Assembly (NCBI RefSeq): GCF_014138625.1
Contig: NZ_JACJHY010000005.1
Location: 1-64,000 of the forward strand
Reading direction: 5' to 3'
Length of the DNA stretch: 64,000 bases
DNA from: Aminobacter ciceronei
GTDB taxonomy: Bacteria; Pseudomonadota; Alphaproteobacteria; Rhizobiales; Rhizobiaceae
How positions within the stretch are numbered: the stretch's first letter is position 1; each line of letters opens with the position of its first letter. The notes under the pieces are model-generated. The model worked only from the letters and a program-made list of their open reading frames with translations, had not been told where the DNA came from and searched no databases. Below, one piece after another: positions 39,299-60,597 of this stretch. The translations under genes and the position numbers were made by a program.

Positions 39299-40003
39299 CT
39301 AGGGCTGGACTCCAGTCTTGAATGGAGAGGCGGGTGCCGAACACATCAGGTGGCCGACCCAGTCGATCGCAATGTCTTTGGTCCTGGCGCGCCATGTGCG
39401 GAAAGGCTCGCCGTCTTCGGCCATGCCGACGCGAGCCCAGTCGCTCCATTCCCGCATGGCCCAGATAAGCACGACCTCGGAATCATTGCGCATGGCGGTG
39501 CGAAAGGCGCCGACAAGCTGCAGCCCCAATTCCATTGCCTGGCCAAGCCAATGCTCCGACACCAGCCGCAAATAATCCTGCGCCAGGCCTGGCTTGATAT
39601 TGACTGTCTCGTGCAGGAATACCTTGGCGCCGACCACACTGCCGTCGGCACAAAGTTGCTCTATGTCGGGTGAGTAAGGGGCTGCGATCAACAATCGGTC
39701 GAGGCCCCCACTGCGGTAATTTTGAGCCGTGAGCCACCACATCTCAAGCGACTTGTCCTGCATCGTGTCCGTGCCGGTCTCATGCGCGAAACTGGCAGCC
39801 AGGCTGTCCCAGTCTTCGTACTCCCACAGGTTCACCACTTGTGGCCAACGGCCCGTGCTGCCGAGCGTCCCCCAGACGCCGAAGCATTTTTGAAGGCGTT
39901 CGGCACTGTGCCGACCCCAGTCGGTCGTCATGTGTTTGAAGTAGTTAGCCCGGTTGGCGCCGATGATGTCGATATATTCGTGGATATAGATCTTGGAATT
40001 CAT
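39299..40003 (-). CDS. NIPSNAP-like family protein
   Basis: Protein of 234 residues built of two ferredoxin-like halves: the first from MNSKIYIHEYIDIIGANRANY, the second from FLHETVNIKPGLAQDYLRLV. Both resemble NIPSNAP/DABB dimeric alpha-beta barrel domains. Trp-rich tracts (VVNLWEYEDWDSL, IWAMREWSDWARVG) are typical. Function unknown; such proteins occur in degradation loci and may bind or isomerise substrates. It lies at the edge of the catabolic cluster, downstream of the ABC permease gene on the same strand. Confidence 0.7.
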   Translation of the reverse strand: MNSKIYIHEYIDIIGANRANYFKHMTTDWGRHSAERLQKCFGVWGTLGSTGRWPQVVNLWEYEDWDSLAASFAHETGTDTMQDKSLEMWWLTAQNYRSGGLDRLLIAAPYSPDIEQLCADGSVVGAKVFLHETVNIKPGLAQDYLRLVSEHWLGQAMELGLQLVGAFRTAMRNDSEVVLIWAMREWSDWARVGMAEDGEPFRTWRARTKDIAIDWVGHLMCSAPASPFKTGVQP

Positions 40004-40142
40004 TCGGGCCTCCCAAAGGTCAGCTAGCTGCCACGCCCTGCCGGGTGGCACTACAAGGGCAGACGAAGAATGATGCCCATCTCGCCGAACGGCCCCGAAG
40101 CGCGCTATCGCATTTCGGGGCAGTTCGGATGCTGCGTTGGAT

Positions 40143-40979
40143 CTAGCGGGATCCTTTGGTCGAGGACGCCGTCCAGGGCAGCATCAACCGTCCGAGCCAG
40201 CGGACCAGCGAGCTGAACAGGAAACCCATGAGGGCTACGGTGCAGATACCGACATACATCCGGTTGGCCTGAAACAGCGACCACGAATGCCAGATGCGAT
40301 AGCCTATGCCCTGGCTTGCCTGGACGAACTCGACGCCGACGATGACCAGCACCGCCGTGCCGATGGCGATGCGCATGGAAATGAACAGCTGTGGCAAAAG
40401 TGCCGGCCAGGTGACGTGCCTGAACATATTCCAGCCCTTGGCGCCGAAGGAGCGGGCGGCCTCGTGATAGTTCTCGGGGATGGCAAGCACTGCCTCCATG
40501 CACTGGATCCAGACCAGGAAGAACACGGTCATGCCGACAAGCAGCACGCTCGGCAGTTCGCCAAGTCCGAAGATCAACAGCAGCAACGGCAGCAGGGCGA
40601 GCTTTGGCACCGTGTAGAGCGCGGTAAGGAACGGCTCCAGCGCGGCGCGTGTCAGGCGCGACAGGCCGAGCAACAGGGCGGCGCCAAGGCCTGATGTGAC
40701 GCCGATGGCGAAGCCGGCGAGCACACGCAGAGCACTCGCGATCACATCCTGCTGCAGCATTCCTGTGCGCAGCATTTCGACCGCTGACAGGAAGATCGCG
40801 CTCGGGGCGGGAAAAAAGCGTGAATCGAGAAGGCCGGCGCGGGCGCAGATCTCCCACAGGATGAAGAACACGACGGGCGTCGCCATCGCCAGCACCTTTT
40901 CCTGCCTTCGCGCCCGCAGCGCATAACCACGTGGGTCGCGCTCGGCTTCGCCCGGTCTGATAGCGATGGTCTTTTCCAT
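40143..40979 (-). CDS. ABC transporter permease, SsuC/TauC type
   Basis: Inner-membrane subunit of 278 residues with about six helices. The ATPase-contacting EAA loop is HEAARSFGAKGWNMFRHVTWPALLP. TVPKLALLPLLLLIFGLGE is characteristic of the sulfonate/nitrate/taurine/thiamine-precursor importers. It is preceded by its ATPase gene (31-bp gap). Its binding protein is probably the one at 49065, on the other side of the divergent operon. Confidence 0.92.
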   Translation of the reverse strand: MEKTIAIRPGEAERDPRGYALRARRQEKVLAMATPVVFFILWEICARAGLLDSRFFPAPSAIFLSAVEMLRTGMLQQDVIASALRVLAGFAIGVTSGLGAALLLGLSRLTRAALEPFLTALYTVPKLALLPLLLLIFGLGELPSVLLVGMTVFFLVWIQCMEAVLAIPENYHEAARSFGAKGWNMFRHVTWPALLPQLFISMRIAIGTAVLVIVGVEFVQASQGIGYRIWHSWSLFQANRMYVGICTVALMGFLFSSLVRWLGRLMLPWTASSTKGSR

Positions 40980-41010
40980 GCTCGTCGCCTCCTCCGCGTC
41001 GATGTCTGTT

Positions 41011-41832
41011 TCAGGCAGCGTGCTTGCCGACCTGCTCTCGCAACAGGTTCCAGATTTCCTGCTCGAGCTTGGCGAACATGGGCTCTCCGCGGATTTCCGG
41101 CGCGCGTGGTCGGGCGAAAGGCACCTCGAATTCGGCGATGATGCGACCTGGCCGCGCCGACATCACCACGACCCGGTCGCCGAGCAGCAACGCTTCTTCA
41201 AGGCTGTGGGTGACGAAGACGACTGAGCGTCTGTCTTCTTGCCAGAGCGTCAGCAACTCGTCCTGCAGGATGCGACGGTGCTGGGCGTCGAGCGCGGCGA
41301 AAGGTTCATCCATCAGAAGGATTTCAGGCTCGACCGCCATGGCGCGAGCGATGGCGACACGTTGCAACATGCCGCCGGAAAGAGCCGGCGGATATGCATT
41401 GGCGAAGTCGGCGAGGCCCATCTTGCCGAGCCAGGCCGTCGCGCGCCTGTCGGCCTCGGCGCCAGACATGCCTGTCATCTCCAGACCGAAGCGGACATTG
41501 GCCTGGATCGTCTTCCACGGAAACACATTGTAACTCTGGAACACCATGGCGGTGGGAACCGCGCGCGTGCCACTGGCATGGACGAGGACCTCGCCCTCGC
41601 TCGGCCTGTGCAGGCCGGCAATCATCCTGAGTACCGTCGACTTGCCGCAACCCGACGGACCGACGAGGCAGACGAATTCGCCACTCCTCACCTTGAGATC
41701 GACACCGGCAAGCGCTTCGACATTGCCGTTGGCGTCATAACGCTTGCGCACCCCTCGCACTTCTATCTTGGCAGGGGCCTCGGCGACCAATGGCATGGCA
41801 GCTGATATGTCGGTTCTGCGCAATGAGTTCAT
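41011..41832 (-). CDS. ABC transporter ATP-binding protein, SsuB/TauB type
   Basis: ATPase subunit of 273 residues. Walker A GPSGCGKST, signature LSGGMLQR, Walker B ILLMDEPFAALD and the switch His in VFVTHSLEEALLLGDR are all present. The start MNSLRRTD (41832) is used; MPLVAEAPAK is a possible internal start. First gene of the leftward operon, divergent from the HyuA-like gene. Confidence 0.93.
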   Translation of the reverse strand: MNSLRRTDISAAMPLVAEAPAKIEVRGVRKRYDANGNVEALAGVDLKVRSGEFVCLVGPSGCGKSTVLRMIAGLHRPSEGEVLVHASGTRAVPTAMVFQSYNVFPWKTIQANVRFGLEMTGMSGAEADRRATAWLGKMGLADFANAYPPALSGGMLQRVAIARAMAVEPEILLMDEPFAALDAQHRRILQDELLTLWQEDRRSVVFVTHSLEEALLLGDRVVVMSARPGRIIAEFEVPFARPRAPEIRGEPMFAKLEQEIWNLLREQVGKHAA

Positions 41833-42175
41833 CTGTCGCTCCGTGAGGAAGTGCAATCCAGCGAGCGCCAAGGGCATCCGCGGACGGGAGGCTAGGCCGA
41901 TAGGCGAAATCAAAACAATCGCTTCCGCAGATTTTCCGGATAGCCGGAAAAGTGCCGGTTGCGTTTGACAGCTTGTTCCGTTCGACGCCTAATCGACGTG
42001 TCTCAAGTGGCGGAAATCGTTGCCGCCTTGGAGAGCGGCGGCGGCTTTCGTTCCCCGCAGGATTGTTTCAATTCCGTGCCGGATTTCCGGCGTTCACGGC
42101 AGGCCACCAACGGCGAGCGCCATGCGTTCGACGGACGGTGGACTGCGTCCTGAAGAGTGATTTGCGAGTTTGCAT
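41833..42175. other. divergent promoter region of the catabolic cluster
   Basis: This 343-bp region separates the leftward ABC genes from the rightward HyuA operon and holds no recognised gene. Its main feature is the perfect palindrome at 41932-41951. Confidence 0.5.
41932..41951. promoter_or_regulatory. operator candidate, CCGGAA type, site 1
   Basis: ttttccgg(atag)ccggaaaa, 8-bp perfect arms with a 4-bp spacer, between the divergent ABC and HyuA operons. The same half-site recurs upstream of the binding-protein gene and the acyl-CoA synthetase gene. IclR at 50053 is the candidate ligand. Confidence 0.6.
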
Positions 42176-44290
42176 ATGCAGATCGTCGGCATCGACACTG
42201 GCGGCACCTTTACCGATACGGTCATTCTTACCGGCGACGGCAGGATCGGGGTCGGCAAGGCACTGACGACGCACGGCCGCCTGATGGAAGGTGTGATCGC
42301 CTCGCTTGCTGTCGCCTCCCGCTCGCTTGGCAAGAGCCTGCGCGAAATCCTCGAGGTGACCGACATCCTGTCGCACGGCACCACCGTCGGCCTCAATGCC
42401 CTGCTCACCAACGCCGGCGCCAAGGTTGGCCTGCTTGTGACCTCAGGCTTTGAGGCGACACTGCCGATGGCGCGTTCCAACAAGGTGCACGGCCTGCCCG
42501 ACGAGGACAGCATCAATGCGCTCAAATGGCGCAAGCCGGATCTGCTCGTTCCCCGCCGCCGCATCATCGGTGTACGCGAACGCATCGACGTCGATGGCAA
42601 CATCATCGTGCCGCTGGATGAAGAGCAGGCCCGGCAGTCGATCCGCCAACTGGTCGCGCGCGGTGCCGAGGCGATCGGCATCGCGCTGATGTGGTCGCCG
42701 GTCAATGGCAGTCACGAGCGCCGTCTCGCCGAACTCGTTGCCGAGGAGGCACCTGGCCTGCATGTGACGTTGTCGAGCGAGCTCGCGCCACGTATCGGCG
42801 AATATGAGCGCACCGCGACCGTTGCCATGAATGCCTATGTCGCACCTCTTGTCGGCGACTACCTGACCTCGCTCGACGAGGCGTTGCGCGATGAGGGATT
42901 TTCGGGCCTGTTCCTGATCGTGACCATGGGCGGCGGCGCGCGTCGCGCGAGTTCGCTGCACGACGCCCCGATACATCTGCTTCAATCCGGACCCGTCGGC
43001 GGCATCATGGCCGCCCGCCAGATCGGCGCGCGGCTTGGGCATGCCGACGTGCTTGCCACCGACGTCGGCGGCACGAGCTTCGATGTCGGCCTCGTCGTCG
43101 GTGGTGCCCTGCCGACCGCTTCCCGACCACGCATCGACCGGCATAGCCTGGCCGTTCCCGTCATAGACCTGGCCTCTATCGGAACGGGTGGAGGCAGCAT
43201 TGCCTATGCCGATCCCGAACTCGGCGTGTTGCGGGTCGGACCGCAAAGCGCCGGTTCGATGCCCGGCCCGGCCTGCTACGGCCGCGGCGGCACGCAGCCT
43301 ACAGTGACGGATGCCGCTGTCGTTCTGGGCCATCTCGATCACCTCGGCGGCGCGCTCATCCTGGATCGCGACGCTGCGCGGTCGGCGCTTGCGCCGCTTG
43401 CCGGCAAGCTCGGCCTTGAAATCGAAGAGGCGGCCGAGGGGATCTTGCGCGTCGCCAATGCACAGATGGCCGATCTCGTCCGCCGCGCCAGCGTGCAACG
43501 CGGCCATGATCCTCGCAACTTCGTGCTTTATGCCTATGGCGGGGCAGCACCTCAGCATGTCGGGCGCTATGCCGCCGAGATCGGTGTGAAGGCAATCGTC
43601 ATACCGCGGCTGGCGCCGGAGTTCTCCGCCTGGGGGGCAGCCTCCAGCGACATGCGGACCTCCTATGAAATCGAGCTGCCCGCCCGGCCGCTGCAGGACT
43701 TCCGTGATGGCGAGATCGACGCCTTCGGTCGGCTTGAGCAGCGCGCCCGAGGCGAATTCGAGGGGCTGGCGGAGGCGAGCCTGGCAGGTGCCGTTGAGAT
43801 ACGGCGCAAGATCGGTCTGAAATTTTCTCGCCAGCTGCACCGGATCGACATCGAAGTGCCGTCGTCACGGCTTGGTAGAGCCGAGATTGCCGCTGCCGAG
43901 GCCGCGTTCCGGTCCCGCTACGAGCAGATCGTTGGTCGGGGTTCGGCCCATGCAAAAAGCACGATCGAACTTGCGGCCGTCGTCGTTGAAGCGCGTATGC
44001 CGATCGTCATGCCCGACAGCGCCCCGACGGGGATGCGCGGCGCGCTCCGGCCCAGCCGGCAACGGCGGGCCTGGTTCGGGGGGCGTGAGCAGGAGACGCC
44101 GGTCTTCCTGTGGGCCGAGCTTGGCGTGGGTGTCGTGATATCGGGACCTGCCTTCATCGAATCCGACCAGACAACGGCAGTCATCTATCCCGGCCAGACG
44201 GTGACGACCGACGTGGACGGCAACCTAACCATGACCGTGCCTGCGGTGCACAAGCGCTCGCCTTCGCCCAGCATCGGGGAATTCGCATGA
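42176..44290 (+). CDS. hydantoinase A / acetone carboxylase beta-like protein
   Basis: Large ATP-dependent subunit of 704 residues. VGIDTGGTFTDTVIL (3-17) is the actin-fold phosphate-1 loop; HGTTVGLNALLTNAGAKVGLL, LATDVGGTSFDVGLV (phosphate-2) and ASIGTGGGSIAYAD follow; AYGGAAPQHVGRYA is the adenosine region. Family members open hydantoins or oxoproline, or carboxylate ketones (acetone, acetophenone). The next gene's zinc tail favours the carboxylase reading. The 4-bp ATGA overlap couples it to the HyuB-like gene. Confidence 0.9.
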   Translation: MQIVGIDTGGTFTDTVILTGDGRIGVGKALTTHGRLMEGVIASLAVASRSLGKSLREILEVTDILSHGTTVGLNALLTNAGAKVGLLVTSGFEATLPMARSNKVHGLPDEDSINALKWRKPDLLVPRRRIIGVRERIDVDGNIIVPLDEEQARQSIRQLVARGAEAIGIALMWSPVNGSHERRLAELVAEEAPGLHVTLSSELAPRIGEYERTATVAMNAYVAPLVGDYLTSLDEALRDEGFSGLFLIVTMGGGARRASSLHDAPIHLLQSGPVGGIMAARQIGARLGHADVLATDVGGTSFDVGLVVGGALPTASRPRIDRHSLAVPVIDLASIGTGGGSIAYADPELGVLRVGPQSAGSMPGPACYGRGGTQPTVTDAAVVLGHLDHLGGALILDRDAARSALAPLAGKLGLEIEEAAEGILRVANAQMADLVRRASVQRGHDPRNFVLYAYGGAAPQHVGRYAAEIGVKAIVIPRLAPEFSAWGAASSDMRTSYEIELPARPLQDFRDGEIDAFGRLEQRARGEFEGLAEASLAGAVEIRRKIGLKFSRQLHRIDIEVPSSRLGRAEIAAAEAAFRSRYEQIVGRGSAHAKSTIELAAVVVEARMPIVMPDSAPTGMRGALRPSRQRRAWFGGREQETPVFLWAELGVGVVISGPAFIESDQTTAVIYPGQTVTTDVDGNLTMTVPAVHKRSPSPSIGEFA

Positions 44291-46482
44291 CAATCGGTCC
44301 GATCGAGCTCGAAATCATCCGCCACCGACTTGAAGCCATCAACGCGGATGCAGGCGAGACGCTGGTCCGTGTCTCGGGTTCGCAGATCGCCTCCGAGGCG
44401 AGTGATTTCAACACCGCGATCATGACGGCCGACGGCACCGTGATCTCGTGCAGCAAGTTCATTCTGGTGCAGTCGACATCGCTCAACCTTATCGTTCGCG
44501 ACATCCTCGATCGCTATGGCGAAAACCCGGGTATTGGTCGCGGTGACCAGTTTCTTACCAACGATCCCTATCTCGGGACGCTGCATCAGCCCGATGTGAC
44601 GCTGGTGGCACCGATCTTTCACGGCGACAGGCTGATTGCCTGGGCGGGGTCGACGGTGCACGAACCGGATGTCGGCGGCCCGGTCAGTGGCGGCTTCAAC
44701 TATGCAGCCCGCTCGATCTTCGACGAAGCGATCCCGATCCCGCCGGTCAAGATCGTCGAGGCAGGCAGCGTCCGCCGCGACATCGAGCGCGACTACCTTG
44801 CCCGCACCCGAACACCCGAGCTCAACGCGCTCGATTTGCTCGGCCAGATCGCGGCGAACCGCGCATCCGAACGTCAGGTGCTGGAACTCTGCGCCGCCTA
44901 TGGCACCGATGGTCTCGTGCACGCGATGGACAGGCTGCTTGCTTCGACGGAGGCAGCCTTCCGGCGCCGCCTCATTGAGCTGCCAGATGGCATTTGGCGC
45001 GAGAACTCGTTCATTCAGCATGAGCAGCGTAGCGGCGCCGACTATTTGCCGAACCAAGTCTACGCCGTCCGCCTCGCCATGGCCAAGGCAGGCGACAAGC
45101 TCAGCTTCGACTTCACCGCCAGCGACGACCAGGCTCCTGGCGCGGTCAACTCCACCTATCCGACGCTGGCCAACTTCACCATGGCGGCGGTGCTCGTCCA
45201 CATCTGCCAGGGCCTGCCCTGGATGCCCGGCGCCATATGGCGCACCATCGACATACATACTCGAAAGGCTTCGATCGTTGATGCCGAGTGGCCGGCCGGC
45301 GTCGCGATGAGCACAGGCACCTCGGCACAAGCGATCCGCAACTGCGTCAGCGGTTGCCTCGCGCGCCTGCTCGACGGATCGGCGGCGCATGCGCACATGG
45401 CCATGGCCTCGTCGCAGTCCTCGGGCGCCGGCGGCATGTCGATTTCGGGACACCGGCGCGACGGCACCCCGTTCACCACGCTGTTTCTGGATGAGCTGAG
45501 CGGCGGCGGCGGCGCCACCGTCCGTGCCGACGGGAGCGACACGTCGGGTACGGCGACGTCGCCGGGCGCGACGCCGTCGAACCTCGAAACCAACGAAGCA
45601 TACTATCCCGTGCTCTATCTGACGCGCCGCGAGTTGGCCGATTCCGGCGGTCCCGGCATGCGACGCGGTGGCGTCGGCGCAATGCATGCCTATCGCCCGC
45701 ACCAGACCGACCGATCGATCGCACTCTTGTCCATGGCGCAAGGCTTGCAGCATCCGGCGACAATGGGCGCAGCAGGCGGTGAACCCGGTTTGCCCAGCGG
45801 CTTCGCCATCATGAGTTGTGACGTGCCGGTGGCCGTTTCAAGCGGCTGGGCGGAGCTTGCTGATGCCACTGATTTTCGGCTGCCCGATGCTGCAACCAGG
45901 CTCTATCCGGATCAGATATTGGTCACGTCCTCGCAAGGGGGCGGCGGCTTTGGCGATCCGCTCGAACGCGATCCGGCTGCGGTTGCCATGGATGTGCTCG
46001 ATGGTCTCGTCAGTGTGGGCAATGCCTTGCGCGACTTTGGCGTGGTCCTGCGTCTCGACGGCGACCAGGTAGAGATCGACCGTGACGCGTCAGAGGCCGC
46101 GCGAAAAGCACGGCTCAAGGTTCGGCTCGGCGGTCGCGATCCGCGCACGATTGAAGGTCCGGTCAGCGGACGTCGCCTGTCCAGCCATTTCCGGGCCGTC
46201 GCAGTCTCCGGTGGCGAGCAGGTCGTATGCGCCGTCTGCGGCCATGGTATCTGCGACGCTGGCGAGGACATCTACGCATCCCTTGCCGTCCATGAAGCCG
46301 TCGCCGGCGAGCGATCAGCCATCACCGACCGCTATCCCGGCAGCGAACGCTTCCGCATCCGCCATTTCTATTGTCCCGGTTGCGCCCGACAGGTCGACGT
46401 CCAGGTCGCGCTTTCAGGCGATCCGGTGCTTGAGGCGATTGAATTGCCGTTTCCCCGCAATCCGACAGAGACAAGACCATGA
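44287..46482 (+). CDS. hydantoinase B-like protein with acetone carboxylase gamma-like tail
   Basis: Protein of 731 residues. Residues 1-550 are HyuB/AcxA-like: IELEIIRHRLEAINADAGETL, FLTNDPYLGTLHQPDV, STYPTLANFTMAA, LETNEAYYPVLYLTRRELA, TSSQGGGGFGDPLERDP. The C-terminal 90 residues add Cys pairs CAVC (648, 651) and CPGC (696, 699) in RHFYCPGCARQVDVQ, resembling the gamma subunit of acetone carboxylase. So two subunits seem fused. Coupled to both neighbours by ATGA overlaps. Family is sure, reaction inferred. Confidence 0.85.
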   Translation: MTIGPIELEIIRHRLEAINADAGETLVRVSGSQIASEASDFNTAIMTADGTVISCSKFILVQSTSLNLIVRDILDRYGENPGIGRGDQFLTNDPYLGTLHQPDVTLVAPIFHGDRLIAWAGSTVHEPDVGGPVSGGFNYAARSIFDEAIPIPPVKIVEAGSVRRDIERDYLARTRTPELNALDLLGQIAANRASERQVLELCAAYGTDGLVHAMDRLLASTEAAFRRRLIELPDGIWRENSFIQHEQRSGADYLPNQVYAVRLAMAKAGDKLSFDFTASDDQAPGAVNSTYPTLANFTMAAVLVHICQGLPWMPGAIWRTIDIHTRKASIVDAEWPAGVAMSTGTSAQAIRNCVSGCLARLLDGSAAHAHMAMASSQSSGAGGMSISGHRRDGTPFTTLFLDELSGGGGATVRADGSDTSGTATSPGATPSNLETNEAYYPVLYLTRRELADSGGPGMRRGGVGAMHAYRPHQTDRSIALLSMAQGLQHPATMGAAGGEPGLPSGFAIMSCDVPVAVSSGWAELADATDFRLPDAATRLYPDQILVTSSQGGGGFGDPLERDPAAVAMDVLDGLVSVGNALRDFGVVLRLDGDQVEIDRDASEAARKARLKVRLGGRDPRTIEGPVSGRRLSSHFRAVAVSGGEQVVCAVCGHGICDAGEDIYASLAVHEAVAGERSAITDRYPGSERFRIRHFYCPGCARQVDVQVALSGDPVLEAIELPFPRNPTETRP

Positions 46483-46934
46483 CAGCCATCCCTTTGCCCT
46501 ATGCTGACGATCCCGACACGGCGGGCTTCTGGGACGCGGCACGCGAGAGTCGCCTCGTCGTCCAGCGCTGCAAGGCCTGCGGCCATTGTCAATTTCCACC
46601 ACATCCGTTCTGCGCCGCCTGCGCCCATGCCGAGACGGAATGGGCCGAAACGTCCGGTCGAGGTTCTGTCTGGTCGTACGGTGTTGCGCATGGTCCGACG
46701 CTGCCTGGTTTCCAGGATGTGGTGCCGTATCCAATGATCGTCGTCGAATTCGAAGACCATCCGCATATCCGCATGGTCGGCAGCCTGGTTGCGGCACCCA
46801 ACGCTGCCATCAACAGCGTACCAGTTTCGGCAATCCGCATCGGCATGCCAGTCGACGTCACCTTTGCTGCCGTCTCCGACGACATCACCCTGCCGCGCTG
46901 GATGCCGCGCGTTTCCGAGAGCCTGAAGCCATGA
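46479..46934 (+). CDS. DUF35 zinc-ribbon/OB-fold protein
   Basis: Protein of 151 residues. The zinc ribbon has C31-x2-C34 and C45-x2-C48 (RCKACGHCQF, FCAACAH), followed by an OB-fold (GRGSVWSYGVAH, YPMIVVEFEDHP). DUF35 proteins pair with thiolase-like enzymes and hand over acyl-CoA substrates, as in PhlACB and ChsH2-Ltp2. Its partner is the next gene, overlapping by 4 bp. Confidence 0.92.
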   Translation: MTAIPLPYADDPDTAGFWDAARESRLVVQRCKACGHCQFPPHPFCAACAHAETEWAETSGRGSVWSYGVAHGPTLPGFQDVVPYPMIVVEFEDHPHIRMVGSLVAAPNAAINSVPVSAIRIGMPVDVTFAAVSDDITLPRWMPRVSESLKP

Positions 46935-48094
46935 GCGATATGATCTCCCTCAAGGACCGGACTGCGATTGTCGGTATTGGCGAGACCGCCTTTGGCAAGG
47001 CCATGGTGCAAAGCGAGGAGCAGCTTGCCTGCATGGCGATCAAGGCGGCGCTCGACGACGCCGGCATCTCGCCGTCGGAGGTCGACGGCCTCTGCTCGCT
47101 CAATATGGAGAACGTCTTCCAGCACGACATCGCGCGTGATCTCGGCATGAAGGAGGTGACCTATTATTCGCAGATGCCCGCCGGCGGACATGGCGGCTGC
47201 GGTACCGTCGGCCATGCGGCCATGGCGATTGCCACCGGCCAGGCCAAGGTGGTCGTCGGCTGGCGCTCGCGCAAGCGGAGCGGCCGTGCAAGCCGTGTCT
47301 GGGCGCAACTGGAGCAGCGCATTCAGGGCAGCCGTGACACCTGGCTGAGACCCTGGGGCATCATCCGGCCTGTCGACGAGGTCGGCGTGATGTACACCCG
47401 CTATATGCACGAATTCGGCGCCACCCGCGATCATCTCGCCAATGTCGCATTGGCGTTCCGAAGCCATGCCAACCGCAATCCCAAGGCCTTCATGCATGCC
47501 AAGCCGATGAGCCGCGAAGACTATTTCGCAGCGCGCTGGATCAGCGAGCCGCTTTGCCTATTCGATTGCTGCCTCGAGACGGACGGCGCGATCGCCTTCG
47601 TCGTCACAGCAGTGGATCGCGCCAGGGATTGCCGCAACAGGCCCGTCTACGTCCACGCCGCAGCCCAGGGGTTCGATGGCGGCAGCGCCATCCTTGCCAA
47701 CTACTTCACGGCCGATCCGATGCGCTCGCAGGCTGCGACCTGCGCGAAGTCCCTGTGGCGCCAGAGCGACTTCCGCGCTGCCGACATCAAGGTGGCGCAG
47801 TTCTACGACGCCTTCACGCCGGAGGTGTTCTTCACCCTCGAAGGCTACGGCTTCTGTGGGCGAGGTGAAGGCGCTGCCTTCACCGAGGATGGGGGCGTCG
47901 CGCTCGGTGGACGCCTGCCGGTAAACACCGGCGGCGGCAGCCTCTCCGAGGTCTATCTGCATGGTTTCAACATGATCACCGAAGGCGTGAAGCAGATGCG
48001 CGGCACCTCCACCGGTCAGGTCGAGCAAGCCGACTGCTGCTTCGTGAGCTCGAGCGATCTGGGCCCGACCTGTGCGGTCGTGTTGCGCAACTGA
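46931..48094 (+). CDS. SCP2-thiolase-like (lipid-transfer-type) protein
   Basis: Thiolase-fold protein of 387 residues. AIVGIGETAFGK opens the domain. GGHGGCGTVGHAAMAIATG places a Cys at 90, about the position of the nucleophile. The classic GHP histidine motif is replaced by NTGGGSLSEVYLHGFN (from 332), as in the Ltp group, whose DUF35-bound members perform retro-aldol cleavage rather than thiolysis. It could therefore be an acyl-CoA aldolase or acyltransferase. Coupled to the DUF35 gene. Confidence 0.87.
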   Translation: MSDMISLKDRTAIVGIGETAFGKAMVQSEEQLACMAIKAALDDAGISPSEVDGLCSLNMENVFQHDIARDLGMKEVTYYSQMPAGGHGGCGTVGHAAMAIATGQAKVVVGWRSRKRSGRASRVWAQLEQRIQGSRDTWLRPWGIIRPVDEVGVMYTRYMHEFGATRDHLANVALAFRSHANRNPKAFMHAKPMSREDYFAARWISEPLCLFDCCLETDGAIAFVVTAVDRARDCRNRPVYVHAAAQGFDGGSAILANYFTADPMRSQAATCAKSLWRQSDFRAADIKVAQFYDAFTPEVFFTLEGYGFCGRGEGAAFTEDGGVALGGRLPVNTGGGSLSEVYLHGFNMITEGVKQMRGTSTGQVEQADCCFVSSSDLGPTCAVVLRN

Positions 48095-48107
48095 GAGGGG
48101 GGCATTG

Positions 48108-48905
48108 ATGCACGATACCATTGTCTGGATCAGCGGCGCGACGCAGGGTGTGGGCCTCGGGCTTGCTCGCAACGTTCCGTTCAAGAATGCCCGCGTCATC
48201 AATCTGTCGCGTCGGAAGCACCCCGACTATGAGAGCGTCACCTTCGACCTGACCGACCCCGCGTCATGGGATCGCGTCCGTGGGCATTTCATCCGGGAGC
48301 TGGCTGCCTTTCGCGGCAAGCGCGCCATATTCATTCACAACGCATACTATTCCGAAGCGATCGGCGTGGTCGGCAAGGTCTCCTCTGAGACATACGAGAA
48401 GGGCGTTCTTGCCAATCTCGCTGCACCCTTCGTGCTTGCTGAAGCGTTTCTCGACGCTTGTCGTCCCGGCTATGAGGCAGGGCTGGTGATGCTCTCTTCC
48501 GGAGCCGCAGTGGCAGCGCTCGAAGGGCTGGCCACCTACTGTGCGTCCAAGGTTGCGGTCGAACACTGGGTCGAAGTCGTCGCACGCGAACGCGAAAGCC
48601 GCGGCGGAACCGGGCCATGGGTGGTGGCGGTACGGCCGGGCGGCGTCGATACGCCGGCCCTGCGCGCGGCAGCCGAAGTCGATCCCGAACTCTATCCGCG
48701 CGTGGCGAGCCTCAAGCGCAACATTCCAAATCGCGTCGACATAGACACGGCGGGCAGACGGATCTGGGCAGCACTGCCGCCGGCTCCGGATACCGCGGTC
48801 ATCTCATTCGCCGAGCCGCCTGATGACCCGGCATTCCAGTTTGGTGGTCCGCGCATAAGGCAACTCGCCGGGTCGAGCTGGAAGCTGGTCTACGACGCGG
48901 GCTGA
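48108..48905 (+). CDS. short-chain dehydrogenase/reductase
   Basis: SDR of 265 residues. ISGATQGVGLGLAR (8-21) is the cofactor loop (GxxxGxG). IFIHNAYYSEAIG replaces the usual NNAG. Catalytic Ser in VMLSSGAAVAAL and the YxxxK motif in TYCASKVAVEHW are present. WVVAVRPGGVDTPALR follows. It would oxidise or reduce a hydroxyl/keto group of the pathway intermediate. The ATG at 48108 follows gaggggg, a strong ribosome site, 13 bp after the thiolase-like stop. Confidence 0.9.
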   Translation: MHDTIVWISGATQGVGLGLARNVPFKNARVINLSRRKHPDYESVTFDLTDPASWDRVRGHFIRELAAFRGKRAIFIHNAYYSEAIGVVGKVSSETYEKGVLANLAAPFVLAEAFLDACRPGYEAGLVMLSSGAAVAALEGLATYCASKVAVEHWVEVVARERESRGGTGPWVVAVRPGGVDTPALRAAAEVDPELYPRVASLKRNIPNRVDIDTAGRRIWAALPPAPDTAVISFAEPPDDPAFQFGGPRIRQLAGSSWKLVYDAG

Positions 48906-48923
48906 CAAGCGCATCGGTCCGAA

Positions 48924-48941
48924 TCCGGAACGCTTTCCGGA
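48924..48941. promoter_or_regulatory. operator candidate, CCGGAA type, site 2
   Basis: tccggaa(cgct)ttccgga, 7-bp perfect arms with a 4-bp spacer, 124 bp before the binding-protein start. Half-sites are those of site 1 (41932-41951) but in the opposite arrangement. Confidence 0.5.
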
Positions 48942-49064
48942 GAGCACGAGGTGCAGGGGCAATGGATCAGGGCGTCCTCTTGCGTCCGTTCGGACGCACG
49001 ACGCTCCAGGAGGTTGCCGACCGGTGGAGGACCGGCGGCGAAAAGAAGCAACAGGGAGGAAGCA

Positions 49065-50090
49065 ATGAAATCTCTATGGAAGAAACTGGCACTCGCCGCC
49101 GCCGTGATCGGGGCAAGCTTCGGCGCCCGTGCCGAAGGCTCCGACGCGCCGAAGCCACTACCGCAGCGTGAGAAGGTGATCGTCGCCATGACCGCCAAGG
49201 TCGAGGCCTACATACCGATGCTGCTTGCCGACCGGATGGGGGAGTTCGACAAGGAGAACATCGACATCGAATACACCTTCGCCAAGTCGAGCGACGGCAT
49301 CGTGCTCCTGTCCACGGGGCGCGCAGACGTGCTCGGCGGCCAGCCGAGTGCGGCCATCTTCAACGCCATTGCCAGTGGCGCAGACATTCGTGTCGTGGCG
49401 CCGCTCTTCGTCCAGTCGCCCGGCTCGAAACAGGGCATCTGGGCCAATAATGCCTTTCTCAACGGCCGCAAATTCACCGTCGACCTGTTCAAGGATCAGA
49501 CGGTTGCCAGCGCCATCGGCCTCGGCTCGACGGCCTCCTACTTCCTGCAGACAGAGCTGGAAAAGGTCGGCCTGTCGCTCAAGGACGTGAAATTCCAGAC
49601 CATGGCTTCTGCCGACATTCTCGTGGCCCTGGAAAACGGTGCCGTCAATTTTGGCTACCTGATCGATTCCATCTGGCAGAAGGCCGACGAATCCAAAGTG
49701 TCTTTGGCCTTCGTCCAGGGGCCTGAGATGTCAGCAGGCTCGTGGAGCTTCGGTCCGCGCCTGCTCAAGGAGCGGCGCGACGTGGGCGAGGCGGTGATGC
49801 GGGCACTGGTGCGCACGACGCGCACCTACCTGCAGGGCGACTACCACGCCAATCCCGCGGTCATGAAGATCATGCTCGAGGAACTGCAACTGCCCGAGGA
49901 GACGCTGAAGAAGGGCGTATCGCTGACCTTCGATCCCAATCTGTACATGCCGGCCGATCTCGCCGCGCGCCTGCAGAAGACCTACGCGCTCATTCCCGAG
50001 GTGCTGTCCTACACCGAATTGATGCCGGAAGACCGTGTCGTCGACCAAGGCTTCATTGCTGCCGCGGGAATTCCCATTCCGGCGAAATAG
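49065..50090 (+). CDS. ABC transporter substrate-binding protein, NMT1/SsuA type
   Basis: Periplasmic binding protein of 341 residues with a signal peptide (cleavage after GARA, near residue 23). VIVAMTAKVEAYIPMLLADRMGEFDKENIDIEY, in two lobes, and SADILVALENGAVNFGYLID are typical of the nitrate/sulfonate/taurine/pyrimidine-precursor family. Probably supplies the SsuC/SsuB-type permease and ATPase at 40143-41832. A gggagga ribosome site precedes the ATG. Its 3' end overlaps the IclR gene tail to tail by 38 bp. Confidence 0.9.
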   Translation: MKSLWKKLALAAAVIGASFGARAEGSDAPKPLPQREKVIVAMTAKVEAYIPMLLADRMGEFDKENIDIEYTFAKSSDGIVLLSTGRADVLGGQPSAAIFNAIASGADIRVVAPLFVQSPGSKQGIWANNAFLNGRKFTVDLFKDQTVASAIGLGSTASYFLQTELEKVGLSLKDVKFQTMASADILVALENGAVNFGYLIDSIWQKADESKVSLAFVQGPEMSAGSWSFGPRLLKERRDVGEAVMRALVRTTRTYLQGDYHANPAVMKIMLEELQLPEETLKKGVSLTFDPNLYMPADLAARLQKTYALIPEVLSYTELMPEDRVVDQGFIAAAGIPIPAK

Positions 50091-50949
50091 GCAGGTCGTC
50101 ATTGGCCCGGTGCAATTCCGCAAGGCGTTGATGCCGGGAAGCTATCTGCCGGAGGGCGGATCCCAAGGCCGCCGTGGCGGGACTTTCCTCGGGATCGGCA
50201 CTGACGAGCCCGACGGCGACCGGAACACGCATGAACTTCGACTGGAAGGGTGCAGCCACTGCGGTAGCCCCTTCCGCCGAGAAGCCGCGGGAGGTGGCAT
50301 AGCCTTGTTTGCGAACCGATCTGACCTTGTCGAGCAACGTGGCCACACTGGCCACGCGCCTTGCCGGCGGTTCGGTGCGAAACATGCGCTTGGCAATCTC
50401 CACCACCACCTCCTGCGGCTTGCCAGACAAAAGCGCCATGCCGGCCGCTGTCGACCAGTCGTAGTCGGTGAAGCCTTCGACATGGACGCCGGCGTGAAAG
50501 TCAGAGCCGGCGATGATCGCCGAGCACTGGACCCAGCGATCGTTCTGCATGCACAGCCATACCGTCAGGCCGGTGTGGCGATGCACTTCGTCCATCAGGT
50601 CGGAGACTGCCGTGCCGCCGAAGAAGGAACCTTCGATGCGCCGGGCCAGAGTGACGATCCGGTAGGAAGGCAGGTAAACCTTCTGACGCGGGTCGAAGGC
50701 GAGGTAGCCGGTGCGCACCAGCGTCTTCAGAATGTCGTCGGCGCTGGAATTGGGAATGGCAAGCGCACGGCTGATCTCGGTCGTACGCGCCGGCCGCGGA
50801 TTGGCCTGGAAGTATTCGAGCACGGACAGCACGCGCAGGCTGGATTTCACCACGCCGCCAGAGCGGTCATTGGTGACGCCCCGCAGCAATTCGTTGGGCT
50901 CCTCGAATCCCAACTCCGCCCGTCTCGCCGTGTTGGCCGCGGTTCCCAT
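50053..50949 (-). CDS. IclR family transcriptional regulator
   Basis: Regulator of 298 residues. The N-terminal winged helix is around KSSLRVLSVLEYFQANPRPARTT, ISRALAIPNSSADDILKTLV; the GAF-like effector domain spans about 100-280 (VWLCMQNDRWVQCSAIIAG, GMALLSGKPQEVV). Start at MGTAANTARR (50949). Divergent from the acyl-CoA synthetase gene. The ligand is probably the substrate or a CoA/acid intermediate of the cluster. Confidence 0.9.
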   Translation of the reverse strand: MGTAANTARRAELGFEEPNELLRGVTNDRSGGVVKSSLRVLSVLEYFQANPRPARTTEISRALAIPNSSADDILKTLVRTGYLAFDPRQKVYLPSYRIVTLARRIEGSFFGGTAVSDLMDEVHRHTGLTVWLCMQNDRWVQCSAIIAGSDFHAGVHVEGFTDYDWSTAAGMALLSGKPQEVVVEIAKRMFRTEPPARRVASVATLLDKVRSVRKQGYATSRGFSAEGATAVAAPFQSKFMRVPVAVGLVSADPEESPATAALGSALRQIASRHQRLAELHRANDDLPISPEWEFPRQQ

Positions 50950-51036
50950 GGCGCTCTCCTCTCCTTGCGCCGGCGTGCCGGCACAGAGCGTTTCGCCGCC
51001 AGTTTGGCACCTTGCCGAGAAGCTGAATTCGGCCAT

Positions 51037-51065
51037 TTGGCCTAGGCCAATCGCCCGGAAATCCG
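51037..51065. promoter_or_regulatory. palindromes before the acyl-CoA synthetase gene
   Basis: ttggcctaggccaa (51037-51050) is a perfect 14-bp palindrome. It is followed by ccggaaatccg (51055-51065), containing cgga-aa-tccg and the CCGGAA half-site seen at the other two cluster promoters. Both lie in the IclR/acyl-CoA synthetase gap. Confidence 0.5.
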
Positions 51066-51087
51066 ACAAACCGAAAGACCCGACATC

Positions 51088-53220
51088 ATGCAGACCATCC
51101 CAAAGGCAATCCAGCACGCCCGCGAAGAACTCGACCGCAGCCTGGTCGATCTCCAGCGCATGTTTCGCAAGAAGAGCGGCATTGCCTATGTCGGCCGTGT
51201 CGACGCGTCGCCGCAAGCGCATAGCTGGTTTCGCCGCTTCGGCGATGACGTGCGGTTTTGCTACGTCAATCCGCGCGGCGGTGAGGCCGGTGGTGTGCCT
51301 GTCTTCACGTCGATGGCGGAGGTGCCTGATCATATCGACCTCGCCGTGGTCAAGGTGGCGCCGGCGATCGTTCCGCAGGTAATCGCCGATTGCGGTCGTC
51401 GCGGCGTGCGCGATGTCATCGTCTTCAGCTCCGGTTTTTCAGAAGTGGGTGCCGAGGGTGCCGCGCTCGAGGCCAAGGTCGCCGAGGTCGCACGTGAACA
51501 TGGCGTGCGTGTCATCGGGCCGAACACCAACGACAACACATTCGAGCAGTTTCCCGTGCCGGAGCATCATCGCGGCGGCCTCGTCGGGTTGGTCACCCAG
51601 AGCGGCTTCAACGGCCGGCCCATCGTCGAAGGCATCGCCATGGGTGCTGCCTTCCGGCGTTGGGTGACGGTGGGCAACGAGGTCGATCTCGAGGTTGCCG
51701 ACTTCATCAACTACTTTGCCCATGATCCGCAGACGTCCGTCATCGCAGCCTATGTCGAAGGCTTCAAGTCGATCGCTAAGCTCAGGCTGGCGCTTGAGGC
51801 TGCCAATGCAATGAAGAAGCCAGTGGTCATGCTCAAGATGGGATCGACCGAGCGTGGTGCGCGCATGGCCGCGTCGCATACAGGCCACCTCGCTGGAGCG
51901 GATGCGGTCATCAACGGCTTGTTCCGGCAGTATGGGGTGATCCGAGTCCGCGATCTCGACGAGTTGCTCGAGACGGCCAACCTGCTCGCCAAGCTGCCGG
52001 CGGGCACCGGCCCGAACTGTGCGCTCTACTCGGTTTCGGGAGGCTCGACGACGCTGATGGCCGAGCTGGCCGACAGCTATGGCGTGAGCTTTCCCGATCT
52101 GTCGCAGGCGACGATCGAAAAGCTCTACGCCTACCTGCCCAACTACGTCACCGTCTCCAATCCGATCGACAATGGCGGCGGCTTTGTCATCGCTGCCCCG
52201 CAGCAGCAGCGTATCGAGGTGCTTGAAGCCATTGCCGCCGACGCAAACGTCGATGTCATCGTGGTCGGGCTGACGGCGGCCCTTGGCCTGCTGTCCGACA
52301 GCTTTGCCGCCGACGTGCTGGCTTTCGCACCACGTTCGCCCAAGCCTGTGGTCGCGGTGTGGGGGTCGGTGCTGACCGACAGTCCCGGCTATCGCGACCT
52401 GGTCAAGTCAGGCGTGCCGATCTTCCGCTCATTCCGCAAATGCTTCCGCGCCATGCGCGCGCACGCTGACTACGAGGCCGCAAAGGCGGCGTTCCGCAGC
52501 CGCTCCTGGGATGCAGCAGCATTGTCGGCCAGCCAGCAAGGCGCGCTGAAGCAGGATGGAATTCTCGACAGCGGACAGGTGGCCGCATTGCTCGACGGCT
52601 CAGGCATCTGCCGTGCTGGCGAGCGCCTGGTTACCTCGTCCTCCGAGGCAGCAGAAGCGTTCGCGGCCTGGGGAGGGCGCGTCGTCATGAAGCTGGCTTC
52701 GCCCGACATCGCCCATAAGTCAGATGCGGGTTTGGTGCTGCTCGACATCGGTGACGCTGTGACTGCCGCAAGCACTTACGAGAGCCTGGTGGCAAAGGCG
52801 AAGACCCATTTTCCGGCGGCTCGGATCGAGGGTGTGCTGATGCAGGAACTGATCGGCACCGGCGTCGAGATGATCGTCGGACTGACGCAGGATCGCGATC
52901 TTGGCCCAACCATCACCGTCGGCGCCGGGGGCATCTATGCCGAAATCCTGAAGGATGCGGCTACGCGACCGTTGCCTGTCGACAAGGACGATATCAGCGA
53001 CATGATCGCCAGCCTGAGGCTCTCCCCTTTGCTCGATGGCGCCCGCGGCGCGGAACCCTCGGACAAGGAAGCCCTTGTCGATCTGGTTTTCAAGCTGGCG
53101 CAACTGGGGCTGGCCGCCGGTTCCGCGATAGCCGAGCTTGACCTGAATCCGGTTATCGTGCTGCCGGACCGGGCTGTGGCTGTCGATGCGCTTGTCATCG
53201 CGGCCAACTCATCGACATAG
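51088..53220 (+). CDS. ADP-forming acyl-CoA synthetase (fused alpha-beta)
   Basis: Acetate--CoA ligase (ADP-forming) family protein of 710 residues. The order is a CoA-binding Rossmann domain (about 25-150), succinyl-CoA-ligase-like domains (about 155-460, with GLVGLVTQSGF and the phospho-His candidate H264 in SHTGHLAG) and a C-terminal ATP-grasp domain (about 490-710, with VVMKLASPDIAHKSDAG and GVEMIVGLTQDRDLGP). It converts an acid, ATP and CoA to acyl-CoA, ADP and Pi. Here it probably activates the acid formed by the HyuAB-like enzyme. Confidence 0.9.
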   Translation: MQTIPKAIQHAREELDRSLVDLQRMFRKKSGIAYVGRVDASPQAHSWFRRFGDDVRFCYVNPRGGEAGGVPVFTSMAEVPDHIDLAVVKVAPAIVPQVIADCGRRGVRDVIVFSSGFSEVGAEGAALEAKVAEVAREHGVRVIGPNTNDNTFEQFPVPEHHRGGLVGLVTQSGFNGRPIVEGIAMGAAFRRWVTVGNEVDLEVADFINYFAHDPQTSVIAAYVEGFKSIAKLRLALEAANAMKKPVVMLKMGSTERGARMAASHTGHLAGADAVINGLFRQYGVIRVRDLDELLETANLLAKLPAGTGPNCALYSVSGGSTTLMAELADSYGVSFPDLSQATIEKLYAYLPNYVTVSNPIDNGGGFVIAAPQQQRIEVLEAIAADANVDVIVVGLTAALGLLSDSFAADVLAFAPRSPKPVVAVWGSVLTDSPGYRDLVKSGVPIFRSFRKCFRAMRAHADYEAAKAAFRSRSWDAAALSASQQGALKQDGILDSGQVAALLDGSGICRAGERLVTSSSEAAEAFAAWGGRVVMKLASPDIAHKSDAGLVLLDIGDAVTAASTYESLVAKAKTHFPAARIEGVLMQELIGTGVEMIVGLTQDRDLGPTITVGAGGIYAEILKDAATRPLPVDKDDISDMIASLRLSPLLDGARGAEPSDKEALVDLVFKLAQLGLAAGSAIAELDLNPVIVLPDRAVAVDALVIAANSST

Positions 53221-54245
53221 CCGCACGATGGCGCAATTCTGCGGCGTTTGAAGGGAGAATTGGGATGCGCATCCAACAAGGGTAGGAGGTCTTCAAATGC
53301 GATCGGGCGACCGACCGCGAGCCTCGTGTTGACCCCCACGCCGGTGATCGACGGTCAAGTTAGCCCCTGCCGGCTACCTGATGTGCCAGCATTGCGCCCC
53401 AACTCGCCGCAACCGGACCGACTGGTATTAGCGCCAAGCAGGGCATCGCGCCATCGCTTGATAAGGTAACCCTTTTCGTTGACAGACGCGCCGTTCCCTT
53501 CTGCTTATCGCGTAACCATGGTGGTGCCGACTTATGCCCATGCCGACACCCCTCCATCCCTGCCTCTTCGGCCTCGCGCATTGGCTCGCCGCACTTATGG
53601 CCTTCGTCGTCGTGTCGATGGAGAGGTGACGGGGCGGACGCTGCACCGACCTGATCTCGCAGCGTGCGGCGCAGCCCTGTCTGACCACGCTGATCGCGCT
53701 GTCGAGCGGGGCCGAGTCTATGGCTGAAAGGGATGTGCGCCGTTGATGGCTAGCATCCCACAGTCTTATCCGCGCATCGTGTGGCGCTACTTTCGCTTCA
53801 GCGCGAGAGGTAGCGTTGCCGAGGAGCCTGAGCCCGAAGAGCTTGGAGCGTTTTCGTTAGTCGGTGATCAGGAACGTCCTGTTGCTGGCCACGTCGAGCA
53901 AGGGCAGTTCCTTGTTGCCGGTGACACTCTTGCTCGCCGCGTTGCCGCCAAAGCAGGCAATGCCGACAGAAGCGCTGAACTGCTCCTGGCCTGAGCCGAG
54001 TGGGCCGGAGGGCGTGCGTGGCGCCAGAAGGCGCAATTATCGCTTCTTCCCGCGCTTGCACCCGCACTCCCGTTGGTCAAACAGAGCCCTCAAACGACAG
54101 CTAACGCTTGGTCTTCGAATGGAAGCTTCCAGTCCCCTCCCGGCCCAATCTGATCATTCCGATGCGAAGTCCTCTTGTCCTGCAAGCATCCAGCAATCGC
54201 AGCCGGGGTGCGGAGCAACATAAGTACGAAAGAGACTTGCGTGAT
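53221..54245. other. about 1 kb without an intact gene, probably decayed
   Basis: No frame is convincingly coding across this stretch. Short coding-like pieces appear on the minus strand, for example the segment ending ELPLLDVASNRTFLITD (stop near 53858) and HPNSPFKRRRIAPS (53240-53290), each broken by stops or frame changes. A gttgacccccac...ggtcaagttagcccc tract (53328-53367) looks like transposon-end debris. It separates the carboxylase-like locus from the next accessory block. Confidence 0.5.
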
Positions 54246-57990: not shown

Positions 57991-58169
57991 TTCTCTCTCC
58001 CATTTTGTAGATGATAGGTCCTCGCCCAATAAAGGGTGGCCGCGTTCAAATGCTCTGCATCGTCTGTTCGGACTAATGTTCTGACGTGCTTTCGCAGCTC
58101 CGCCTTGTTCCGAAGCGCATGAATATTTGCTTCGTCACGACTGCCCGGCAGCTGTTTCGGTGGGCGTCC

Positions 58170-59081: not shown

Positions 59082-59118
59082 TTGTCCTCGTTATTCAGAA
59101 ACCGTTGAAGTCATATGA

Positions 59119-59136
59119 CCATTATAGGAATAGTGG
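59119..59136. promoter_or_regulatory. LysR operator candidate
   Basis: ccattat (59119-59125) and atagtgg (59130-59136) are inverted with one mismatch and a 4-bp spacer, between the LysR start (59081) and the thiolase start (59192). Confidence 0.45.
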
Positions 59137-59191
59137 AGGATAGGTTCTCGCGCTAGCCTCCGGGACAGTTGAAATCGCTGAGCCTTTTCCG

Positions 59192-60346: not shown

Positions 60347-60597
60347 GCAGAATCAATAGAGCACCACTTCAGCACGAGCAACATGAGTGATCCGACCAGG
60401 TTTTGTCGGAGATGTATTTCTTTTATTGCTTGAATTTATTTAAGTAATGTCAAATATATCGTCCAAATAGACGATTTATGATTAGATGTAGGAAAATATT
60501 GTCGTCGATGGCATCCCGAATATTCCGAGTCCCGATTGGAGACTTGCCTACTCGCCCACATCCACATCTGGCCTCGTCAATCGCTTAGGAGACCTTG
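60347..60597. promoter_or_regulatory. AT-rich promoter region of the halogenase-like gene
   Basis: This is the most AT-rich stretch in the window (about 60410-60520: tttattgcttgaatttattt, aagtaatgtcaaatatatcg). It contains the inverted repeat atcgtc(caaata)gacgat at 60458-60475. No gene. It likely holds the halogenase promoter. Confidence 0.5.

Follow-up and report, generated by a model that had tools for sequence, protein, structure and literature searches.

What pathway is encoded by a block of eleven genes that places a HyuA/HyuB enzyme next to an ADP-forming acyl-CoA synthetase (ACD) and a DUF35-Ltp gene pair? We addressed this question for positions 39299-53220 (~14 kb) of the window, by which we mean the whole 64,000-nucleotide stretch of Aminobacter ciceronei DNA analysed here. 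The genes named in the original prediction, encoding NIPSNAP, an ABC importer, HyuA, HyuB, DUF35, a protein of the thiolase superfamily, a short-chain dehydrogenase/reductase (SDR), an IclR regulator and the ADP-forming synthetase, are all present where they had been placed, and each has a family match.

A proposed route from import to retro-aldol cleavage

Our favoured answer, with a probability of roughly 0.45, is that the block serves the uptake and breakdown of a compound through import, ATP-dependent conversion by HyuAB, attachment of CoA, reduction and retro-aldol cleavage. The ABC importer and the binding protein encoded with it would take up a carbonyl compound. HyuAB, whose HyuB subunit carries a gamma domain, would then activate the carbonyl with ATP and carboxylate it, which we rate slightly above an even chance. 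Alternatively, and somewhat less probably, HyuAB-gamma would open the ring of the substrate if that is a cyclic amide or imide. The acid from either reaction would be converted to its CoA ester by the ACD. The SDR would set the oxidation state, in the simplest case turning a beta-ketoacyl-CoA into a beta-hydroxyacyl-CoA, whose cleavage by the Ltp/DUF35 pair would give an acyl-CoA together with an aldehyde or ketone. Since the last step is predicted to be a retro-aldol reaction, a beta-keto acid would have to be reduced beforehand, which the SDR could do. We infer the step order, the substrate and the choice between carboxylation and hydrolysis; the conserved residues given below were observed directly. 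It counts against this route that neither a hydratase nor an acyl-CoA dehydrogenase is among the eleven genes, leaving the usual route to a beta-hydroxyacyl-CoA without genes.

The original prediction had proposed ketone import, carboxylation, CoA activation and C-C cleavage. The block has matching genes for uptake, for an ATP-dependent reaction by HyuAB, for activation with CoA and for breaking a C-C bond, and a ketone is a possible substrate. The thiolytic last step that it implied gives way to a predicted retro-aldol cleavage, as judged from the active site.

HyuB ends in a carboxylase-type gamma domain

HyuA (42176-44290, plus strand; PF01968, PF05378, PF19278) is the ATP-binding (ASKHA) subunit. 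Its ATP motifs are intact (DTGGTFTD at 42194, DVGGTSFD at 43061 and GSMPGP at 43253), and RERIDVDG lies at 42575; the HyuA-type motifs were taken from the available parts of PMC8453981 and PMC5214803. HyuB (44287-46482, plus strand; PF02538) retains the metal tetrad D40 (44404), H100 (44584), D103 (44593) and H125 (44659). Across 41 sequences, D40 and H100 are invariant, and D103 and H125 are kept in at least 90%. The ATP motifs (DxGGT, DxGGT, GxxPGP) and the Asp-His-Asp-His site are common to carboxylases and hydrolases, so the metal site does not discriminate between them.

The "zinc tail" noted earlier on HyuB is present, and we can now label it more precisely as a gamma-type zinc-ribbon domain (PF08882, Acetone_carb_G, 9e-8) fused to the HyuB C-terminus at 46147-46479 on the plus strand. 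Of its four cysteines (C648, C651, C696 and C699), C696 is invariant in the 41 sequences and the others occur in at least 90%. Searching the PDB with the tail alone returned 5l9w_C (E 6e-5), followed weakly by 5svb_C (0.077) and 5m45_C (0.25), which are gamma chains of acetophenone and acetone carboxylase. According to the available part of PMC5214803, the gamma subunit occurs in acetophenone carboxylase (Apc) and acetone carboxylase (Acx) and is absent from hydantoinases (Hyd). The carboxylase idea gains from the fusion of this domain to HyuB. The genome holds six HyuB genes, and gamma was found with the block's HyuB only (at L001, the contig stops shortly downstream of HyuB).

We checked how general this domain is among 177 HyuB copies from 176 loci, a set that includes duplicate places and was scored with a profile trained on gamma-bearing sequences, tails included. 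Gamma is fused in 109 copies, adjacent in 30 and was not found in 38, many of the gamma-less loci having a 1.5 kb flank only. Among these 38, the gamma-trained profile gave less than 410 bits to 34 copies and a cut one (L084, at a locus end). L128, L144 and L155, which represent two distinct places, scored 641-703 bits, yet no gamma was found with them. The group includes both arrangements of the domain, since in L045, L046, L040 and L043 gamma has a reading frame of its own directly downstream of HyuB. By sequence, the gamma-bearing HyuAB form a large set distinct from the gamma-less hydantoinases/lactamases, and we found no characterised member of this set.

Performing fold comparison, we find that the AF2 model of HyuB (pLDDT 88.8) has 5l9w_A and 5m45_A as its top matches. 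The TM-score TMq was 0.74-0.77 to the ApcD and AcxA chains versus 0.70-0.71 to N-methylhydantoinase (NMHase) and CapB. Gamma chains appeared as separate weak fold matches (5svb_F/C, 5m45_C, 5svc_C and 5l9w_C; E 4e-5 to 3e-3).

Carboxylation or ring hydrolysis

The strongest competing explanation, to which we give real weight though less than even odds, is that HyuA/HyuB-gamma uses ATP to hydrolyse a cyclic amide, an imide or a hydantoin, and that the freed acid is converted to a CoA ester and cleaved by the aldolase. A polar substrate of this kind would suit the ABC importer. Several further observations pull in the same direction, away from carboxylation. The NCBIfam caprolactamase profiles outscore those of acetophenone carboxylase (487 vs 369 bits for HyuA, 209 vs 187 for HyuB), all far under their cut-offs; the caprolactamase equivalogs NF050156 and NF050157 gave 486.8 and 209.4 against a curated cut-off of 1000. 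The target-normalised TM-score (TMt) is higher for CapB (0.89) than for ApcD (0.81) and AcxA (0.72-0.74). Because this fit favours CapB, the TMq order may reflect chain length only, and the structure ranking does not decide. In the available part of PMC5214803, the gamma subunit is considered non-catalytic. The gamma-bearing L153 groups with the gamma-less L128 near the hydrolases in the HyuA tree (90/89). One cluster of cysteine hydrolases, whose L063 representative most resembles RutB and biuret hydrolase, accompanies HyuAB in 9 of 108 pooled loci or pieces. Finally, approximately unbiased (AU) tests rejected neither the window with the hydrolases (p-AU 0.241) nor the window with the carboxylases (p-AU 0.298).

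Other results speak against a hydrolase. The 34 low-scoring HyuB copies, duplicates included, have no gamma nearby, and hydantoinases are reported to lack it. As for the two solved hydrolases, CapA and N-methylhydantoinase form one clade with the gamma-less rows in our 49-row HyuA tree (100/99), and the window is not part of it. The cysteine-hydrolase genes stand near relatives only and not in the window block. Instead of two genes for alpha and beta without gamma, the window has gamma fused. The same tree places Acx and Apc in a pair of their own (98/98) that does not include the window; its backbone is partly open, and three changes are needed for the gamma label.

The window enzyme thus has the domain layout of the carboxylases, as read from its sequence, and is a candidate member of their branch. 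The gamma domain seen in Apc/Acx and fused here speaks for the earlier claim of carboxylation, and the AU tests reject neither placement; the fold comparison of the HyuB model put ApcD/AcxA first, with CapB fitting better by target length. On balance we regard carboxylation as somewhat likelier than ring hydrolysis.

The DUF35-Ltp pair is predicted to be an aldolase, not a thiolase

The protein earlier called a thiolase (46931-48094, plus strand) matches PRK07855, a "lipid-transfer protein" model, over its cut-off, and its best PDB match is the aldolase TcLtp2 (6ok1), with 41% identity. Glycine occupies the position of the nucleophilic thiolase cysteine (GGHGGCG, 47183), and tyrosine that of the histidine in the thiolase HDxF motif, both as in TcLtp2. 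Tyr294 and Tyr344 of TcLtp2 are both tyrosine in the window protein (YDAF at 47804 and EVYLHG at 47948). The two tyrosines serve TcLtp2 as base and acid, and replacement of its His296 cost 14-fold, according to the available part of PMC12329534. One residue argues the other way: the window aldolase has alanine at His296 (YDAF, not YDHF), as do the homologues of ES2-1 and Nakamurella (L158). Because replacing His296 cost TcLtp2 14-fold, the histidine of YDHF is not essential.

The adjoining DUF35 gene (46479-46934, plus strand) overlaps the aldolase start and encodes a zf-ChsH2 zinc ribbon with an OB fold (OB_ChsH2; PF12172, PF01796; CxxC..CxxC from 46569). It is the probable partner of the Ltp2-type aldolase. 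Since the thiolase cysteine is lost and the Ltp2 catalytic tyrosines are kept, our best prediction is that DUF35-Ltp is a retro-aldolase cleaving a beta-hydroxyacyl-CoA.

Could the aldolase belong to a steroid or terpenoid side-chain pathway, in which it frees a ketone that HyuAB then carboxylates? We found 178 plasmid records with an Ltp match and viewed four, to which the window aldolase is 38-48% identical. The ES2-1 and Vibrio alfacsensis homologues lie in steroid-type clusters, among acyl-CoA dehydrogenase, MaoC or OB-fold genes (in ES2-1 also FadD3 and P450). The other two are on the ibuprofen plasmid pIBU218 and in another acyl-CoA cluster, of EbN1. The pIBU218 homologue is presumably ipfD; the available part of PMC9195938 describes the action of the ipfDE product as yielding propionyl-CoA. 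A steroid or terpenoid role is unlikely: genes for a MaoC hydratase, an acyl-CoA dehydrogenase or an oxygenase are not among the eleven, the identity to the four homologues is low, and the corresponding core in Nakamurella has no adjacent aldolase. We therefore regard the steroid pathway as not supported.

Much less probable still is the implied earlier view of DUF35-Ltp as a true thiolase acting directly on a beta-ketoacyl-CoA. Pfam thiolase domains are present in it, and thiolase-family genes with HDCF and Cys motifs stand within 10 kb of a gamma-bearing HyuAB in L060 and L114. Against this, all the distinguishing residues described above agree with TcLtp2, and we rejected thiolysis by DUF35-Ltp on these active-site residues. 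The window Ltp shows that a thiolase-family match can conceal an aldolase.

The block is inherited as one unit

The original prediction named a search for the gene set in other genomes as a check, and the set does recur. Among 297 genomes sampled from the family, 5 are assigned to the window's genus, its own included, and a close HyuB (>80% identity) is found in three of these (100, 96 and 84%). No HyuB was found at E 1e-60 in the congeners G444 and G643. G591 carries all eleven genes in the order of the window, and G530 carries ten in the same order, NIPSNAP being absent from the stretch retrieved. A 13,926-base segment of G591 corresponds to window positions 39299-53221 with 96% DNA identity and the same ends; the G530 match covers 40161-53195 in two pieces (79 and 83%).

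The flanks are different. We aligned the whole 64-kb window with the beginning of contig C3 of G591 (first 52.7 kb) and of contig C3 of G530 (first 47.6 kb); besides the block, a single 66-base piece matched elsewhere (E 1e-5). The methyltransferase gene left of the window's block is located on contig C1 in G591, where the block itself is on C3. The GntR/aminotransferase-type gene right of the block had no match in the other four congeneric genomes (E 1e-50). A repC gene lies on the same G591 contig as the block, and a search for repC on the window's contig C5 found none. The G591 block (L148) sits on a 245-kb contig between glycine-betaine-like ABC genes and small plasmid-type genes, as named by eye. 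Ratios of nonsynonymous to synonymous change (dN/dS) were 0.03-0.24 for ten genes, each compared with both congeners and NIPSNAP left out.

On these alignments, which span 13.9 kb in G591 and ~13 kb in G530 but not the flanks, the block is one inherited unit, and movement between replicons as a single catabolic block best explains its distribution. A chance neighbourhood of unrelated genes is hardly credible: although ACD, DUF35 and Ltp-like genes are present in just 3, 4 and 5 of 96 gamma-bearing loci (the two congeners counted in each), we rejected it for the congeners on their common block with differing flanks and kept gene order, and seven of the genes (NIPSNAP, binding protein, permease, ATPase, ACD, HyuA and HyuB) cluster in another phylum.

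Occurrence beyond the genus

That cluster is in Nakamurella lactea (Actinomycetota), where HyuA/HyuB-gamma (51-52% identical) lies beside ACD (39%), importer ATPase (69%), permease (61%), binding protein (40%) and NIPSNAP (54%). No aldolase, DUF35 or SDR gene was seen at this HyuAB locus. Another contig of the same genome carries four Ltp-like genes, of which the two closest are 42-45% identical and retain the two tyrosines, so an aldolase may act from elsewhere in the genome. A family III CoA-transferase gene (L181:2740-4041) directly follows NIPSNAP in Nakamurella lactea, and its product perhaps replaces or helps the ADP-forming synthetase. G727, an actinobacterium of the same order as Nakamurella, has HyuA-HyuB (54%)-DUF35, with an Ltp-DUF35 pair ~8 kb away in which both catalytic positions are histidine.

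For neighbourhood counts we used 96 gamma-bearing and 11 gamma-less loci of at least 10 kb each, in which near-duplicates remain (e.g. L068 with L153). NIPSNAP occurs in 2 of the 96 (one congener included), and ACD, NIPSNAP, DUF35 and Ltp-like genes occur in 0 of the 11 gamma-less controls. Among the five Ltp-like proteins near a gamma-bearing HyuAB, the tyrosine-type site is found in the two congeners only; those of L060 and L114 resemble true thiolases. Close copies of HyuB are rare. At E 1e-140, one was found in 1 of 346 genomes of the Nakamurella phylum (Nakamurella itself) and in 1 of 337 of the window's class (its own genome). Within the order of Nakamurella, 2 of 298 genomes have a HyuB with >50% identity (Nakamurella and G727). 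When 249 genomes of the window's order were searched with the aldolase, a single further match reached E 1e-80, with 42% identity. The scan of genome contigs kept the best 80 of 559 relatives, and closer relatives may be missed.

Other surroundings of gamma-bearing HyuAB

The stretches that combine a cysteine hydrolase with a gamma-bearing HyuAB are L045, L046, L059, L061, L062, L063, L065, L130 and L156; in L045, L046, L062 and L156 we also saw, by eye, a nucleoside-type importer-like permease. The RutB/biuret-hydrolase-like genes nearby would fit ring-opened ureides and suggest that some members act on ureides or cyclic amides, which counts against reading all of the group as carboxylases. 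Other gamma-bearing stretches hold gentisate-dioxygenase-like, salicylyl-CoA-hydroxylase-like and acyl-adenylating enzymes, as judged from cluster representatives. Gamma-bearing HyuAB recurs together with an arylmalonate-decarboxylase/EutA-like gene in L077, L078, L082, L085, L087, L090, L093, L099, L105 and L184. These ten clusters contain a DHB-AMP-ligase-like gene (10/10), a salicylyl-CoA-5-hydroxylase-like monooxygenase (9/10) and, named by eye, VOC-type (9/10) and alpha/beta-hydrolase-type (10/10) genes. The gamma-bearing group probably serves several pathways.

Gene layout and remaining members

ATPase, permease and NIPSNAP genes are on the minus strand, and HyuA-HyuB-DUF35-Ltp-SDR-binding protein follow on the plus strand. 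The stop/start overlaps of HyuA/HyuB, HyuB/DUF35 and DUF35/Ltp lead us to read HyuA to the binding protein as a putative single operon. At the right end of the block, IclR (minus) and ACD (plus) are divergent.

The importer comprises an ATPase of the nitrate/sulfonate/taurine type (41011-41832, minus strand; PF00005; 69% identical to the Nakamurella locus L057), with an alternative start at 41913, and an SsuC/TauC-type permease (40143-40979, minus strand; PF00528; 61% to L057) that the SsuC and TauC models match below their cut-offs. Its NMT1/SsuA-type periplasmic binding protein (49065-50090, plus strand; 40% to L057) matches PF09084 over the cut-off; a PDB search with it gave no match at E 0.1, hence no ligand hint. 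The NIPSNAP-family protein (39299-40003, minus strand; PF07978, 26.7 bits against a cut-off of 22.3; 54% to L057) has an alternative start codon at 40051, a poor structure model (pLDDT 37.9) and weak PDB matches. The SDR (48108-48905, plus strand; PF00106) has the motifs SGATQGVG and YCASK. The IclR-type regulator (50053-50949, minus strand) matches PF09339 and PF01614.

The ACD (51088-53220, plus strand) has its alpha and beta parts fused, with CoA-binding, ligase and ATP-grasp_5 domains (PF13380, PF13607, PF13549). Its SHTG loop, with the histidine expected of this enzyme class, is at 51874. The best PDB matches are 9y43 and 8wzu.

A separate set of genes at window positions 56986-62034 encodes an SMP-30-type protein, a LysR regulator, a conventional thiolase with Thiolase_N and Thiolase_C domains, and an FAD enzyme resembling tryptophan halogenases.

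Meaning and comparison with known systems

A bolder idea, which we put forward as doubtful, is thiolase-free, carboxylation-primed chain cleavage, in which a gamma-fused HyuAB would use bicarbonate on an imported ketone, the ACD would form the beta-ketoacyl-CoA, the SDR would reduce it and an Ltp2-type aldolase would release an acyl-CoA and an aldehyde, all within a transferable unit; the gamma-bearing HyuAB would then be a large set of ketone carboxylases. If carboxylation is true, a biotin-free CO2-fixing reaction and a new route of ketone breakdown would be added. A unit that is compact, conserved and transferable, and that includes an aldolase and a defined CoA ligase, offers a testable handle on the function of gamma-bearing HyuAB. 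Each enzyme class of the block is already known. In the available parts of the open-licence PMC literature, we found no description of this gene set, of the beta-gamma fusion or of an enzyme of this kind joined by both an ADP-forming synthetase and an aldolase of the Ltp2 type.

Acetone carboxylase (AcxABC, Xanthobacter; 5m45, 5svb) shares with the window enzyme the alpha-beta-gamma gene order, the ATP subunit, the metal subunit and a four-Cys zinc gamma; as a further likeness, an Apc-type alpha-prime was not seen in the block. The window enzyme differs in having gamma fused to beta, an Asp (Hyd/Apc type) at the position of Acx Glu89 and 21-22% identity in the structural alignment; its HyuA does not group with Acx in the tree. 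Acetophenone carboxylase (ApcABCDE, Aromatoleum; 5l9w) provides the first fold match of the HyuB model (5l9w_A) and the first sequence match of the tail (5l9w_C), whereas its alpha-prime and epsilon genes are absent among the eleven and its gene order differs. Caprolactamase CapAB (6yra) and N-methylhydantoinase (7hk5/9h03) agree with the window enzyme in both core subunits, in the ATP motifs and in the metal site, and caprolactamase gives the best NCBIfam profile for the window HyuAB and, in CapB, the best target-normalised fit. Unlike the gamma-bearing window enzyme, both lack gamma and group with gamma-less relatives.

The ACD resembles ADP-forming acyl-CoA synthetases of the 3-hydroxypropionate or 4-hydroxybutyrate type (9y43, 8wzu) in domain content and SHTG loop, but scores below every NCBIfam cut-off. 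The Ltp2-ChsH2(DUF35) steroid aldolase of Thermomonospora curvata (6ok1) is matched by the window pair in its conserved Tyr294/Tyr344, its missing thiolase Cys and its adjacent DUF35 gene. The window pair departs from it in the Ala at His296, and its block has no hydratase gene and no steroid genes.

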